A stretch of DNA of 64,000 nucleotides from contig VGYX01000006.1 of the NCBI GenBank assembly GCA_016872835.1, positions 1-64,000 of the forward strand, written 5' to 3'. The stretch is from Planctomycetota bacterium. Lineage in GTDB: Bacteria; Planctomycetota; Phycisphaerae; Phycisphaerales; SM1A02. Position numbers and translations under genes: made by a program. A model generated the notes under the pieces. It made no database searches. It saw only the letters and a list, made by a program, of their open reading frames with translations, and was not told the DNA's origin. Below, piece by piece: positions 10,762-14,969 of the stretch (position 1 is its first letter; every line of letters starts with the position of its first letter).

Positions 10762-10907
10762 GGTGTTCTCCTTGAGGGGGATGATTTGGGGCGACCATGG
10801 TAGCGGAGCAACGGCCCGACCGCCGATCCGCATGGAAAAGGGGCCCCAACGGCCTGCAAACGCCGAAACACTGGGATACTGCGCCGCCTAAGTTCCATGG
10901 AGGTTCG

Positions 10908-12947
10908 ATGCAAGGCACGGAAGCCGCGGTGATGGATTCGTCCAAGAGCCAGAACGCACCCAGGACCCCGCGCAAGCGGGGCGCGACCGCCGAGGAGATG
11001 GCGGGACGCCAGCGCGACATCAGCGTGAGCGAGTTCTTCGCGAAGAACCGCCACCTGCTGGGTTTCGACAACCCGCGCAAGGCGCTGCTGACCACCGTGA
11101 AGGAGGCAGTGGACAACAGCTTGGATGCCTGCGAGGAGGCGGGCATCCTTCCCGAGATCTCGGTGATCATCGAGGACCTGCAGCCGGACCGGCCGGCGAC
11201 AGCAAAGAGCTCGCGCTATCGCGTGACCGTGGTGGACAACGGTCCGGGCATCGTGCGCAAGCAGGTCGAGAACATCTTCGGCCGCCTGCTCTACGGCAGC
11301 AAGTTCCATCGACTGAAGATGAGCCGCGGGCAGCAGGGCATCGGCATCAGCGCGGCGGGCATGTACGGCCTGATCACCACAGGCAAGCCGATGGTGATCC
11401 ACACCAAGCCCGGTGCGAAGCAGGCCGCGCATCACATCGAACTGGCGATGAACACGAAGACGAACCGCGCGGAGGTGACGCTCGACGAGGAGACGGGCGA
11501 CTTCCCGCCGCTGCGGTTCCGCACGCTCACGCCCGGCACGCGCGCGCTCAGTGGCGAGGCCGGAGGCTTCCTGGATGTGCAGGCCTATCGCAGCGGAACC
11601 TGCGTGAGCATCGAGCTGGAGGGGCGCTACCAGCGTGGTCGAGGATCGGTGGACGAGTTCCTGGAACTCACGGCGATCGCGAACCCGCACGGCCGGTTCG
11701 TGTTCGTGCCGCCGAGCCGCGTGAGCGCCGACGACGAGGGCGACACGCCGATCCTGGCGCAGGCCGAGGCGGGGGCCGCGGCCGCTGCAGCGGTGACCAC
11801 CGAGACGCAGGGCGTGACGGTGTTTCCGCGCGGCGTGCAGGAATTGCCGCCCGAGACGAAGGAGATCCAGCCGCATCCGAAGGGCATCGAGCTTGGCACG
11901 CTGCTGCAGATGCTGAAGGACTACGAGGCGGCCGAGAAGGGCACGCTGTTCAACTTCCTGCAGGAGCGCTTCTGCCGCGTGAGCCCGTCGACCGCGGGCG
12001 CGCTGTGCGAGAAGATCGGGCTCACGAGCCGCCGCAAGGTGGCCGACGTGGAGCCGCCGATGGCGGAGAAGCTGTTCGAGGCGTTCCAGAACGCGAAGCT
12101 GGCGCCACCGCCGACCGACTGTCTGGCGCCGATCGGCGTGCGGCAGTTGCTCGCAGGCATGCTGAAGGGTGTGCGCGCGGAGTTCTACGCGGCCAGCACC
12201 CGTGATGCCGAGGTGTATCGCGGGCGGCCGTTCCAGATCGAGGCGGCGATCGCGTTCGGCGGCGAGCTGCCGGCCGACGAGACCGCGCGCGTGATCCGCT
12301 TCGCCAACCGTGTGCCGCTGCTCTTTCAGCAGAGCGCCTGCAGCAGCTTCAAGGCCGTGGTGGAGACCGGTTGGAAGAACTACAACCTGCAGCAGCCGCG
12401 CGGCAGCCTTCCGGTGGGGCCGCTGGTGATCATGATCCACGTGGCCAGCGTGTGGGTGCCGTTCACCAGCGAGAGCAAGGAAGCGATCGCCGACTACGAC
12501 GAGATCCGCAAGGAGATGCGGCTGGCGCTCATGGAGTGCGGCCGCAAGCTTGGCACCTACCTGCGCAAGCGCCAGCGCATGCGCCGCGAGGGCGAGCGAC
12601 GCGACGTCTTTGAGCGCTACATCGGCGAGATCAGCAAGGCGGTGAACGCCATCACGGGCACCGACGCGCGCAAGTTGTACGACGCGCTGCTCGAGCAGGC
12701 GCGCAAGCGCACCGCGCAGGCGGACCAGGTGCTGGACGAGGACGGCAAGGTGGTGAAGGACGAGCCGATGGACGAGGACGGCGTGATCGTGGTGCAGAGT
12801 GCGATCGCGCCTGCGCCCGAAAGTGACCGGATCTCGGCCCCACCGGTGCCGGAGCGCCAGCCGAAGCGCGGCAAGCCGGCGGACAAGCCGGCCGCGCCAG
12901 CGAAGACTCGCGGCAAGCGTGGCGGTGACGGCCCCAGCCTCTTCTGA
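10908..12947 (+). CDS. top6B: DNA topoisomerase VI subunit B (ATPase)
   Basis: The 679-residue protein is a type IIB topoisomerase B subunit. The GHKL ATPase motifs are in order: EAVDNSLDA (residues 66-74, catalytic Glu/Asn), VVDNGPGI (Asp110) and SRGQQGIGISAAGMYG (from 139). Later come PHPKGIELGTLLQMLKDYE, an H2TH-like segment, the transducer-domain sequence IRFANRVPLLFQQSACSS, and VWVPFTSESKEAIADYDEI, all diagnostic for Top6B. It binds ATP, dimerises and opens and closes the A2B2 enzyme to pass one duplex through another. An Ala/Glu-rich insertion (about 280-310) and a charged Pro/Lys-rich tail are extra. ATG 10908 follows GGAGG at 5 nt. top6A lies 27 bp downstream. Confidence 0.95.
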   Translation: MQGTEAAVMDSSKSQNAPRTPRKRGATAEEMAGRQRDISVSEFFAKNRHLLGFDNPRKALLTTVKEAVDNSLDACEEAGILPEISVIIEDLQPDRPATAKSSRYRVTVVDNGPGIVRKQVENIFGRLLYGSKFHRLKMSRGQQGIGISAAGMYGLITTGKPMVIHTKPGAKQAAHHIELAMNTKTNRAEVTLDEETGDFPPLRFRTLTPGTRALSGEAGGFLDVQAYRSGTCVSIELEGRYQRGRGSVDEFLELTAIANPHGRFVFVPPSRVSADDEGDTPILAQAEAGAAAAAAVTTETQGVTVFPRGVQELPPETKEIQPHPKGIELGTLLQMLKDYEAAEKGTLFNFLQERFCRVSPSTAGALCEKIGLTSRRKVADVEPPMAEKLFEAFQNAKLAPPPTDCLAPIGVRQLLAGMLKGVRAEFYAASTRDAEVYRGRPFQIEAAIAFGGELPADETARVIRFANRVPLLFQQSACSSFKAVVETGWKNYNLQQPRGSLPVGPLVIMIHVASVWVPFTSESKEAIADYDEIRKEMRLALMECGRKLGTYLRKRQRMRREGERRDVFERYIGEISKAVNAITGTDARKLYDALLEQARKRTAQADQVLDEDGKVVKDEPMDEDGVIVVQSAIAPAPESDRISAPPVPERQPKRGKPADKPAAPAKTRGKRGGDGPSLF

Positions 12948-12974
12948 TCGAACGCGAACGACAAGGAACGAACC

Positions 12975-14102
12975 ATGGCCAAGAGCAAGTCAGCGAACGC
13001 GGCGACCAAGGCCCGCGATGCGGCGACCGAGAGGAAGATCGTGGAGATGGCCGACGGCGTGGCGAAGAGGGCGCTCGGTGGTCGCGAGCCGATGGTGGCG
13101 ATTCCCACCCGTGCGCGAAGCAACACGACCTGGAACAAGAAGAAGGGCATCCTGCAGATGGGGGATGCGGCGCAGGAGCGCCAGCTCTTCAACCTGAACC
13201 AGGCGAAGAGCTTCATGCAGACCATGCTGCATGGCAGCAGCGTGAAGGACCTGATCGCGGCCGACAAGACGCTGAGCCTTCGTGGCATGTTCTACAAGGG
13301 CCTGCACACCGTGGCGGGCACGAAGGAGAAGACCTTCGCCGATCAGGACGAGTCGGACGGCATCCTGGAGGACCTCGAGGTGTCGCTCGGCGCGCTACGC
13401 GAGGAGCTGCACATCTTCGCCAAGAAAGCGGGCACCGTGGTGGGCAACATCACGTTGGTGGACTCGGGCGACGAGATCGACTGCCGTCGCATGGGCAGCG
13501 GCGGCTACGCGATTCCCAGCATCGTGGAACCCGACGTGATCCAGTTCAAGAAGTGCGAGGCGAAGTTCGTGCTGCACGTGGAGAAGAACACGGTGTGGAG
13601 CCGCTTCAACGAGGATCGCTTCTGGGAGAAGCACAACTGCATCCTGACCGAGGGCGGCGGCCAGCCCCCGCGCGGTGTGCGCCGCCTGCTGCGGCGCCTG
13701 AACGAGGAGCTGGGCCTGCCCATCTACTGCCTGCTCGACTGCGATCCGTGGGGGCACTACATCTACAGCGTGATCAAGCAGGGCAGCATCTCGCTGGCCT
13801 TCGAGAGCGAGCGACTGGCGATTCCGGAGGCGAAGTTCCTGGGCATCCGCTCGAAGGACTACAAGGCCTGCGGCCTGAGCGACGACGTGCAGATCGCGCT
13901 GAACGACAACGACATCAAGCGCGCCAAGGAGATCGCGGCCTACCCGTGGTTCGAGGCGCACAAGGGCTGGCAGAAGGAGATCGAGGGCCTGCTGTCGAGC
14001 GGCTTCAAGATGGAAGTCGAGTCGCTGATCACCAAGGACATCAGCTACGTGACCGAGGAGTACGTGCCGCAGCGCCTGAAGGCGAAGGACTGGCTCGACT
14101 GA
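12975..14102 (+). CDS. top6A: DNA topoisomerase VI subunit A (Spo11-like cleavage subunit)
   Basis: The 375-residue protein is the DNA-cleaving partner of Top6B. The winged-helix CAP domain carries SLRGMFYKGL, whose Tyr107 aligns with the catalytic Tyr of the R-x-x-Y-Y motif; the first Tyr of that pair is Phe106. The Toprim domain has VEKNTVWSR (Glu203) and LLDCDPWGHYIYSVIK (Asp255 and Asp257), the metal-binding triad. The C-terminal helices end at KAKDWLD. The A subunit makes transient double-strand breaks through a 5'-phosphotyrosine link. The N-terminus is Lys/Ala-rich. AAGGAA precedes ATG 12975. The stop abuts the stop of the convergent histidine kinase as TGATCA. Confidence 0.95.
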   Translation: MAKSKSANAATKARDAATERKIVEMADGVAKRALGGREPMVAIPTRARSNTTWNKKKGILQMGDAAQERQLFNLNQAKSFMQTMLHGSSVKDLIAADKTLSLRGMFYKGLHTVAGTKEKTFADQDESDGILEDLEVSLGALREELHIFAKKAGTVVGNITLVDSGDEIDCRRMGSGGYAIPSIVEPDVIQFKKCEAKFVLHVEKNTVWSRFNEDRFWEKHNCILTEGGGQPPRGVRRLLRRLNEELGLPIYCLLDCDPWGHYIYSVIKQGSISLAFESERLAIPEAKFLGIRSKDYKACGLSDDVQIALNDNDIKRAKEIAAYPWFEAHKGWQKEIEGLLSSGFKMEVESLITKDISYVTEEYVPQRLKAKDWLD

Positions 14103-14969
14103 TCAGGATTCGGTGCGTGGCGGTGGACCGCCGAGCGGCAGCCGAAGCGTGAAGCAGGCGCTGCCGGAAGGACCGTTGTAGAGCGTGATGGAGCCGCCGT
14201 GCTCCTCGATGATGCGGCGGGTGGTGGCCAGGCCAAGGCCGCTGCCCCCGGGCTTGGTGCTGGCGTAGGGCCGGAAGATCGTGGCGCGTCGCTCCTCGGG
14301 AATTCCCGGGCCTTGATCGATCACGCTGAGCCGGGCTTCATCACCGGTCGAGTCGAGTTCCAGCCGGAACATGAGTTCGCCGCGCCGTTCGCCCGAGGGC
14401 GCATGTCCTGCAGGCGTCATGGCCTGCACCGCGTTGATCGCCAGGTTCAGCAGCGCCTGCTTCAGCAGTCCCGCATCCACGCGCGCCGTGACCGGAACCC
14501 CCGGCACGTCCACGCGCAGCAGCACGCCCGCGCGGTCCGCCTGCGGCTGGAAGAAGTCGACGAGTTCGCTGATCAGTTCACGCAGGTCGCGTGGCTGGGG
14601 ATCAAGACGCATGCGCCCGGCGAACTGCAGGAAGTCGCTCAGGATGTCCTTCAGGCGAAGCGTCTCGCGGGCCAGCGCGTCGACGCGTCGCGTGACGGCG
14701 GCGCGCGTCTCCTCGGGCAGGTTCGAGTCAAGGATGTCTTCGCGCAGCAACTGCGCGTTCAGGTTCAGCGTGCTGAGCGGATTCTTGATCTCGTGTGCCA
14801 GACCGCTGGTCATGCTGCCGAGTTCGGCCAGCCGTTCCGATGCCTGCGCTCGCCGTTCCGCCTCGAGCGTGCGCGTGGCGCGGCGTCGCAGCGAACGCGC
14901 CGCGGCGAGCGCTGCAAGCACGGCGCCCGAGGCGAGCCCGATCAGGAATGCCGGCAGTGGGGAGATCAT
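14103..14969 (-). CDS. Membrane-anchored sensor histidine kinase
   Basis: The 288-residue protein begins with one membrane helix (PAFLIGLASGAVLAALAAA), a short coiled linker, a HisKA domain with GLAHEIKNPLSTLNLNAQLL (phospho-acceptor His59) and a HATPase domain with N box INAVQAM, G1 DQGPGIP and G2 GGSGLGLATTRRIIEEHGG. There is no periplasmic sensor domain to speak of, so it resembles NtrB/AtoS-type kinases without the PAS domain. No response regulator gene is adjacent, making it an orphan kinase. ATG 14969 was chosen because the upstream frame is a low-complexity Arg/Pro stretch; no clear ribosome site is visible. Confidence 0.88.
   Translation of the reverse strand: MISPLPAFLIGLASGAVLAALAAARSLRRRATRTLEAERRAQASERLAELGSMTSGLAHEIKNPLSTLNLNAQLLREDILDSNLPEETRAAVTRRVDALARETLRLKDILSDFLQFAGRMRLDPQPRDLRELISELVDFFQPQADRAGVLLRVDVPGVPVTARVDAGLLKQALLNLAINAVQAMTPAGHAPSGERRGELMFRLELDSTGDEARLSVIDQGPGIPEERRATIFRPYASTKPGGSGLGLATTRRIIEEHGGSITLYNGPSGSACFTLRLPLGGPPPRTES

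Follow-up and report, generated by a model that had tools for sequence, protein, structure and literature searches.

Topoisomerase VI in a Phycisphaerales planctomycete: a gene pair with discordant subunit phylogenies in a genome where topoisomerase IV was not found

The window analyzed here, a 64,000-nucleotide stretch of DNA from a planctomycete of the order Phycisphaerales (assembly GCA_016872835.1, contig VGYX01000006.1, positions 1–64,000), carries two adjacent genes, top6B and top6A, for the ATPase and DNA-cleaving subunits of DNA topoisomerase VI (topo VI). Their active-site residues are intact, genes for topoisomerase IV (topo IV) are missing from the genome by profile search, the phylogenies of Top6A and Top6B conflict, and the tail of Top6B has a conserved end. 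Taken as a whole, it is reasonably likely that a working chimeric topo VI operates in place of topo IV in this lineage, possibly tethered to the replication sliding clamp.

An earlier note, made from the sequence alone, had described a complete two-subunit topo VI in this bacterium, and the profiles bear this out: both open reading frames are intact and scored above the Pfam and NCBIfam cut-offs. Top6B matched HATPase_c (PF02518), Topo-VIb_trans (PF09239, 193 bits), and the NCBIfam model top6b (TIGR01052; 443.1 bits against a cut-off of 380.7). Top6A matched TP6A_N, Topo_VI_alpha, TOP6A-Spo11_Toprim (195 bits), and NF003333 (507.5 bits against a cut-off of 465), which is the PRK04342 family and whose library label reads “topoisomerase IV subunit A”. 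Tyr107, Glu203, Asp255, and Asp257 of Top6A lie exactly where the note had placed them and show no variation across an alignment of 17 rows, the window sequence among them. Phe106, to which it had given special weight, is present, but Phe and Tyr both occur at that place across the same rows, and we rejected it as a special feature. For an H2TH domain in Top6B, there was no separate Pfam match; the model has helices between residues 329 and 421, where such a domain would be expected. The predicted folds of both subunits matched solved topo VI chains best, with Top6B closest to M. mazei topo VI B; the AlphaFold models were moderate (mean predicted local distance difference test [pLDDT] score, 71.9 for Top6B and 77.4 for Top6A) and added little to the sequence evidence. 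The features are as follows.

10908..12947, + strand: top6B, ATPase subunit of topo VI (679 aa, ATG start; above Pfam and NCBIfam cut-offs)
12975..14102, + strand: top6A, DNA-cleaving subunit of topo VI, “type 1” (375 aa, ATG start; Pfam, NCBIfam, and trees)
10899..10903, + strand: GGAGG, likely ribosome-binding site of top6B (from the sequence; 4 bases 5′ of the ATG at 10908)
12963..12968, + strand: AAGGAA, weak ribosome-binding site of top6A (from the sequence)
12801..12944, + strand: C-terminal tail of Top6B, residues 632–679, predicted to be disordered (pLDDT <50; low-complexity and variable except at its end)
12927..12944, + strand: DGPSLF, terminal motif of Top6B, candidate clamp-binding motif without the canonical Q (from xLF tails of relatives and DinB variants)
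13293..13295, + strand: catalytic Tyr107 of Top6A (computed position; alignment)
13581..13583, + strand: Toprim Glu203 of Top6A (computed position; alignment)
13737..13745, + strand: Toprim Asp255-Cys-Asp257 of Top6A (computed position; alignment)

The pair is almost certainly a genuine topo VI and would form a working A2B2 enzyme. Topo VIII and Mini-A, which are a single fused chain or a lone A subunit on a mobile element (PMC8185306), were considered as alternative identities and ruled out by the two adjacent genes and by the presence of B beside A in many relatives.

Histories of Top6A and Top6B

Planctomycete Top6A falls into two types. The 113 genomes for which the Top6A region was fetched comprised 50 of type 1 and 63 of type 2, and all 20 typed genomes of the window's order were type 1. 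Across 64 planctomycete A–B pairs, the mean identity of Top6A was 58.0% within type 1 and 63.6% within type 2 but 33.4% between the types, whereas the corresponding values for Top6B from the same genomes were 58.4%, 58.6%, and 55.1%. Type-1 Top6A shared 41.2% identity with that of S. shibatae and 35.7% with that of M. jannaschii; for type-2 Top6A, these values were 34.7% and 55.0%, respectively. The two types of Top6B were alike in their identity to archaea, sharing 34.3 and 34.6% with S. shibatae and 48.3 and 48.7% with M. mazei. In the phylogenetic tree of Top6A, type 1 joined S. shibatae (support 100/99) and type 2 joined M. jannaschii (100/95), and the A data rejected a single clade of types 1 and 2 in the approximately unbiased (AU) test (p = 1e-59). 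In the tree of Top6B, all planctomycetes stood together (86/88), with type 1 nested in type 2 beside f83 and families f6–f8, the latter belonging to the same class (85/87); the stem of type 1 measured 0.076.

A second conflict, within type 1 only, required no archaeal sequences, involved no long branches, and was significant both ways. When the Top6A tree was constructed from type-1 sequences only (32 rows), eight rows of the window's order, the window included, grouped with five rows of families f72, f81, and f98 (100/99.9), and the A data rejected a clade comprising the order's 12 rows (AU, difference 69, p = 0.0002). Type-1 Top6B held these 12 rows together (100/98.8), matching the taxonomy codes, and rejected the A-like grouping (AU, difference 62, p = 0.0013). 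Thus, the unusual phylogenetic placement anticipated by the earlier note was found for Top6A, but not for Top6B, which follows the taxonomy of the order.

Top6A and Top6B very probably have different histories. Because of the deep split in A and the reciprocal AU conflict within type 1, we conclude that Top6A appears to have been exchanged at least twice while Top6B stayed. Any direction or donor read from these trees would be provisional, S. shibatae being simply the nearest among the few archaea compared; one bacterial A cluster has been placed near DPANN and some Euryarchaeota (PMC11302465).

Several observations on individual loci accompany these trees. In families f6–f8, Top6A and Top6B lie apart: in six loci, no B lay closer to A than about 4.5 kb, and B was found elsewhere in the genome. 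The transducer profile match was split in two, as by an insertion, in Top6B from f72 (four genomes) and f81 (one genome). Genome G038 (locus L162, family f43; contig apparently the same as L099), coded only as “same phylum”, has a type-1 pair 76–79% identical to that of the window. Its congener G143 gave the same profile score, which points to transfer between families or an oddity of the coding, and away from a single misbinned contig.

Type II topoisomerases in the window genome and in planctomycetes

The window genome (2.39 Mb in 46 contigs, 98.9% estimated completeness) contained one GyrA/ParC match (PF00521), one GyrB/ParE match (PF00204), and one Top6A match, and its type II set is gyrase plus topo VI. 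The earlier note had named gyrase and topo IV as the bacterial norm; a second GyrA-like and a second GyrB-like gene, as expected for topo IV, were sought by profile, and neither was found. Its description of topo VI as sporadic in bacteria fails for this phylum, as TP6A_N was present in 189 of 392 sampled planctomycete genomes (PF00521 in 384), including 23 of 31 from the window's order. Among the 189 genomes with Top6A, there were at least two PF00521 matches in 19, one in 164, and none in 6, so that 170 had no second GyrA/ParC; the corresponding counts for the 203 genomes without Top6A were 105, 96, and 2. In a good-quality typed subset of 216 genomes, at least two PF00521 matches occurred in 10 of 119 genomes with Top6A versus 62 of 97 without it.

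Because kinship inflates such statistics, switches within groups are more telling than phylum-wide counts. Within the window's order, families f1, f2, f3, and f5 had Top6A in 23 of 24 sampled genomes, with one PF00521 match each, whereas family f4 had Top6A in none of seven and two PF00521 matches in all seven. A second GyrB/ParE (641–660 aa) was present in 8/8 f4 genomes versus 1/33 others (G368) in a 41-genome sample of the order. The second PF00521 gene of f4 was 33–34% identical to the window genome's GyrA and lacked a blade-1 GyrA box in the three genomes read, and it adjoins a ParE-length gene in G231 and G352. Opposite topo IV and topo VI states within one family also occurred in f37, f72, f20, and f14. 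These results suggest that, in this lineage, topo VI quite probably stands in for topo IV. The occurrence of topo VI without topo IV in planctomycetes has already been published, for five families represented by a single species each (PMC11302465). The present counts widen that statement. The five families are presumably planctomycete families.

The combination of gyrase, topo IV, and topo VI has been reported only in Pseudomonadota and Terrabacteria (PMC11302465). Unlike that range, 12 planctomycete genomes among the 19 with Top6A and at least two PF00521 matches have a short ParC-like gene whose domain match is nearly complete (329–363 bits); they belong to families f26, f32, f41, f63, and f71 and were judged on ParC alone. 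All seven of the short ParC-like proteins read lacked any GyrA-box-like sequence under a lax pattern, which was met by every protein of the same set scoring >600 bits to the window genome's GyrA, and carried RYIECR. The 12 genomes are thus probable additions to the known holders of all three enzymes. Not every second PF00521 copy represents topo IV, a reading that we rejected: G300 and G119 have two GyrA-like genes, and G298 and G139 have a split one. Two more of the 19 genomes, G116 and G254, have a second match that is weak and partial. The idea that type 1 is stricter than type 2 in excluding topo IV (0/50 versus 8/63 by copy number) was weakened on checking: only four of those eight type-2 genomes (G019, G025, G035, and G203) have a short ParC, so the difference is small.

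Planctomycete ParC seems to occur in two kinds, one long (open frames of about 770–1000 aa, 444–498 bits) and one short (mostly 635–734 aa, 326–372 bits). The window genome's GyrA (contig C9) has QGRGGVG rather than QRRGGKG as its first-blade GyrA box and repeats the box as QSRGGKG in a late blade; box variants of the form QxRGGxG, along with a late repeat, also occur in several other planctomycete GyrA proteins. Genome G172 (genus g10, 98% complete) has one PF00521 match and no TP6A_N match, though three sampled congeners have one, reflecting either a recent loss or a gap.

The tail of Top6B

The extra tail that the earlier note had remarked on in Top6B is real and became our main lead. When tail length was counted from a YI motif that these proteins share on the C-terminal side of the transducer, most of those of type 2 ended within about 40 residues, whereas type-1 proteins continued for 79–211 residues of variable, low-complexity sequence. 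We compared the tails of the nearest relatives (the best 80 of 343, by named loci; 59 with a complete B and 21 without). An LF motif was present in 58 of these 59 tails (shuffled mean, 4.2), including 26 of 27 from loci titled Phycisphaer-, and in 28 of 43 type-1 tails of the genome sample, partly from the same organisms (shuffled mean, 3.0), versus 0 of 44 type-2 tails (shuffled mean, 0.7). In the wider type-1 set, Q stood three residues before L in 11 of the 28 LF tails (background 3.1%, p = 3e-10), and Qxx[LM][FLM] was found in 13 of 43 tails, for example QPTLF, QGNLF, QKELF, QRNLF, QLQMF, and QPDLL. The bacterial clamp-binding consensus is QL(S/D)LF, with variation tolerated (PMC9690074).

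Among 30 DinB-family proteins examined from the order, 22 were close homologues (≥44% identical to that of the window genome, itself included), and 20 of these had an LF motif at the likely clamp site. Twelve motifs contained Q (QLGLF, QLDLF, QMGLF, QPTLF, and QASLF among others) and eight did not (EGPGLF in four proteins, DAPSLF, AELGLF, APGMLF, and, in the window's own genome, SETSLF). The eight remote DinB paralogues had other xLF sequences; the search looked for LF only, which favors finding it. The window genome has two DnaE-type polymerases (L244 and L245), and one of them has QMNMF. The end of the Top6B tail thus looks like the clamp motif of the order, and we marginally favor the reading that the tail is a tether to the sliding clamp. 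Literature on the clamp and topo IV or VI, judged by titles and abstract openings, included no description of a topo VI with a clamp-binding motif; topo VI subunits are mentioned in a pull-down of P. abyssi NucS with PCNA.

Proposed explanation, alternatives, and related systems

In topo VI, ATP drives B to dimerize and so trap a second duplex, with A cleaving and rejoining the first (PMC11302465). We propose that, in the window's lineage, topo VI would decatenate in the cell, unlinking sister chromosomes, and would relieve positive supercoils beside gyrase, which is the job of topo IV in most bacteria. Its origin would be chimeric, with Top6B inherited with the lineage and Top6A swapped on one occasion across two widely divergent A families and on at least one other within type 1. 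Type-1 Top6B would have gained its disordered tail, the end of which most likely binds the sliding clamp and would place the enzyme at newly replicated DNA. The more specific proposition that Top6A is a repeatedly exchanged module in bacteria, and that a chimera of resident Top6B and foreign Top6A took over from topo IV in whole planctomycete lineages and became linked to the replisome through a new clamp-binding tail, is offered tentatively, with somewhat less than even confidence.

Several points weigh against this explanation, and one alternative is that no exchange took place: type-1 Top6A would be the same planctomycete gene, evolving very fast on its stem, so that the two A families only seem unrelated. 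The A trees drew long-branch warnings, the bootstrap of the full A tree was unsettled, and archaeal sampling was limited to five A and three B sequences with a long S. shibatae branch. When S. shibatae was left out (a thinned set of 37 rows), the rejection of a single A clade became modest (AU p = 0.03), and the B data did not reject an A-like deep split (log-likelihood difference 3.1, p = 0.27), owing to a short stem and to archaeal rows that are scarce and long; the case for the deep split therefore rests on identities and branch lengths. These identities link the two A types to different archaea, however, and the conflict within type 1 is significant both ways without long branches, although its clades were named after the trees were seen. 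Fast evolution of a single gene is therefore highly improbable in our view. We consider it just as improbable that an ordinary planctomycete topo VI was inherited as a unit and that the conflict is a tree error. A survey of 17 bacteria reported two bacterial clusters for A and likewise for B (PMC11302465), as such inheritance would predict; nevertheless, Top6B proteins of types 1 and 2 are as alike as members of the same type while their Top6A proteins are not, and the AU tests reject each other's groupings.

Our preferred reading, that topo VI stands in for topo IV, must also be set against a side role, in which gyrase alone decatenates and the missing topo IV is coincidental. Whole families seem to be gyrase-only (15/20 good genomes in f49 and 4/4 in f29), and these make up most of the 35 of 97 good genomes without Top6A that have a single PF00521 match, indicating that gyrase alone can suffice. 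The 12 genomes with both Top6A and a short ParC are a further point against replacement, and the Fisher p values near 1e-18 for the counts of PF00521 with and without Top6A are too small because the genomes are related. A side role is nonetheless improbable given the switch within the order and the opposite pairs within f37, f72, f20, and f14. Moreover, M. mazei topo VI is a preferential decatenase (PMC8837201), and an unpublished complementation of a parE-ts E. coli strain by it has been mentioned (PMC11302465), although the S. shibatae enzyme decatenates poorly (PMC8185306). As for the tail, its end may bind another partner, such as one recognized by mimicry of the C-terminal tip of single-stranded DNA-binding protein or one involved in chromosome segregation. 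In the nearest relatives, 44 of the 58 LF motifs end the protein, usually behind acidic residues (DDPRLF, DGPTLF), a pattern reminiscent of that tip. The canonical Q is absent from the window motif and from all 58 of these motifs (Qxx[LM][FLM], 0/59), so that DGPSLF fails the strict clamp consensus, and 15 of the 43 wider type-1 tails have no LF. However, 14 of the 58 motifs are followed by further residues, so a free carboxylate is not needed; QPTLF, QKELF, and QLQMF occur in other type-1 families; and similar Q-less variants are seen in DinB from the order, at its likely clamp site (8/20). Another partner is therefore unlikely, if far from negligible, and the clamp is the partner that we prefer.

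Archaeal topo VI (M. mazei 2Q2E, S. shibatae 2ZBK) shares the two-gene organization, a B subunit with GHKL and transducer domains, and an A subunit with winged-helix and Toprim domains. By sequence, the window's Top6B is nearer to M. mazei (429 versus 255 bits) and its Top6A nearer to S. shibatae (267 versus 173 bits), and Top6B has a disordered tail where M. mazei has an immunoglobulin-like C-terminal domain (PMC9348778). In archaea, Top6B gained C-terminal extensions in gyrase-acquiring lineages, which are thought to partition the two enzymes (PMC9348778). Our tether proposal parallels this, since type-1 planctomycetes also have an added B C-terminus in gyrase-holding organisms; however, the archaeal extensions are globular, whereas the planctomycete one is predicted to be disordered and bears a short motif. 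Such a tail is also absent from type-2 planctomycetes, even though 61 of their 63 typed genomes contain a GyrA/ParC match. The tail shares with the bacterial clamp motif QL(S/D)LF an LF core in a flexible region, and other type-1 families have QxxLF or QxxMF; the window and its near relatives lack the Q, making theirs a candidate only. The part examined of the table of bacterial clamp partners in PMC9690074 names no topoisomerase.

The planctomycetes described by Allen and Maxwell in 2024 likewise have gyrase and topo VI and lack topo IV; the parts consulted of that survey, which treats the role of topo VI in bacteria as an open question, describe neither an A/B conflict within planctomycetes nor the tail motif (PMC11302465). 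Our searches found no literature joining “Phycisphaer” and “topoisomerase VI” and, by title among the best 8 of 44 matches, none on topo VI subunit swaps. To our knowledge, the 17 bacteria of the 2024 survey include none from Phycisphaerales. Relative to the published work that we found, both the A/B conflict and the conserved end of the tail are additions. Planctomycetes offer natural replacement pairs, with sister lineages that have topo IV or topo VI and lineages that have both or neither. If the subunits really swap, the A–B interface of a type II topoisomerase would be more permissive than assumed, which would bear on how Spo11 found its new partner.

Carriage by phages or plasmids was not indicated: a scan of viral contigs for Top6A gave no match, and a plasmid scan gave three haloarchaeal replicons only. 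In the window, top6B and top6A form a two-gene unit on the + strand with a spacing of 27 bp, flanked on the − strand by ndk upstream and by a histidine kinase gene downstream that ends at 14103. The “strong Shine-Dalgarno sites” of the earlier note describe top6B (GGAGG), but not top6A (AAGGAA). Its view that the codon character resembles that of the neighbors and that any transfer is old agrees with the G+C content at third codon positions, which is 0.91 in top6B and 0.94 in top6A compared with 0.78–0.93 in six neighboring genes; this base composition fits an old event, and we rejected a recent transfer on that ground.

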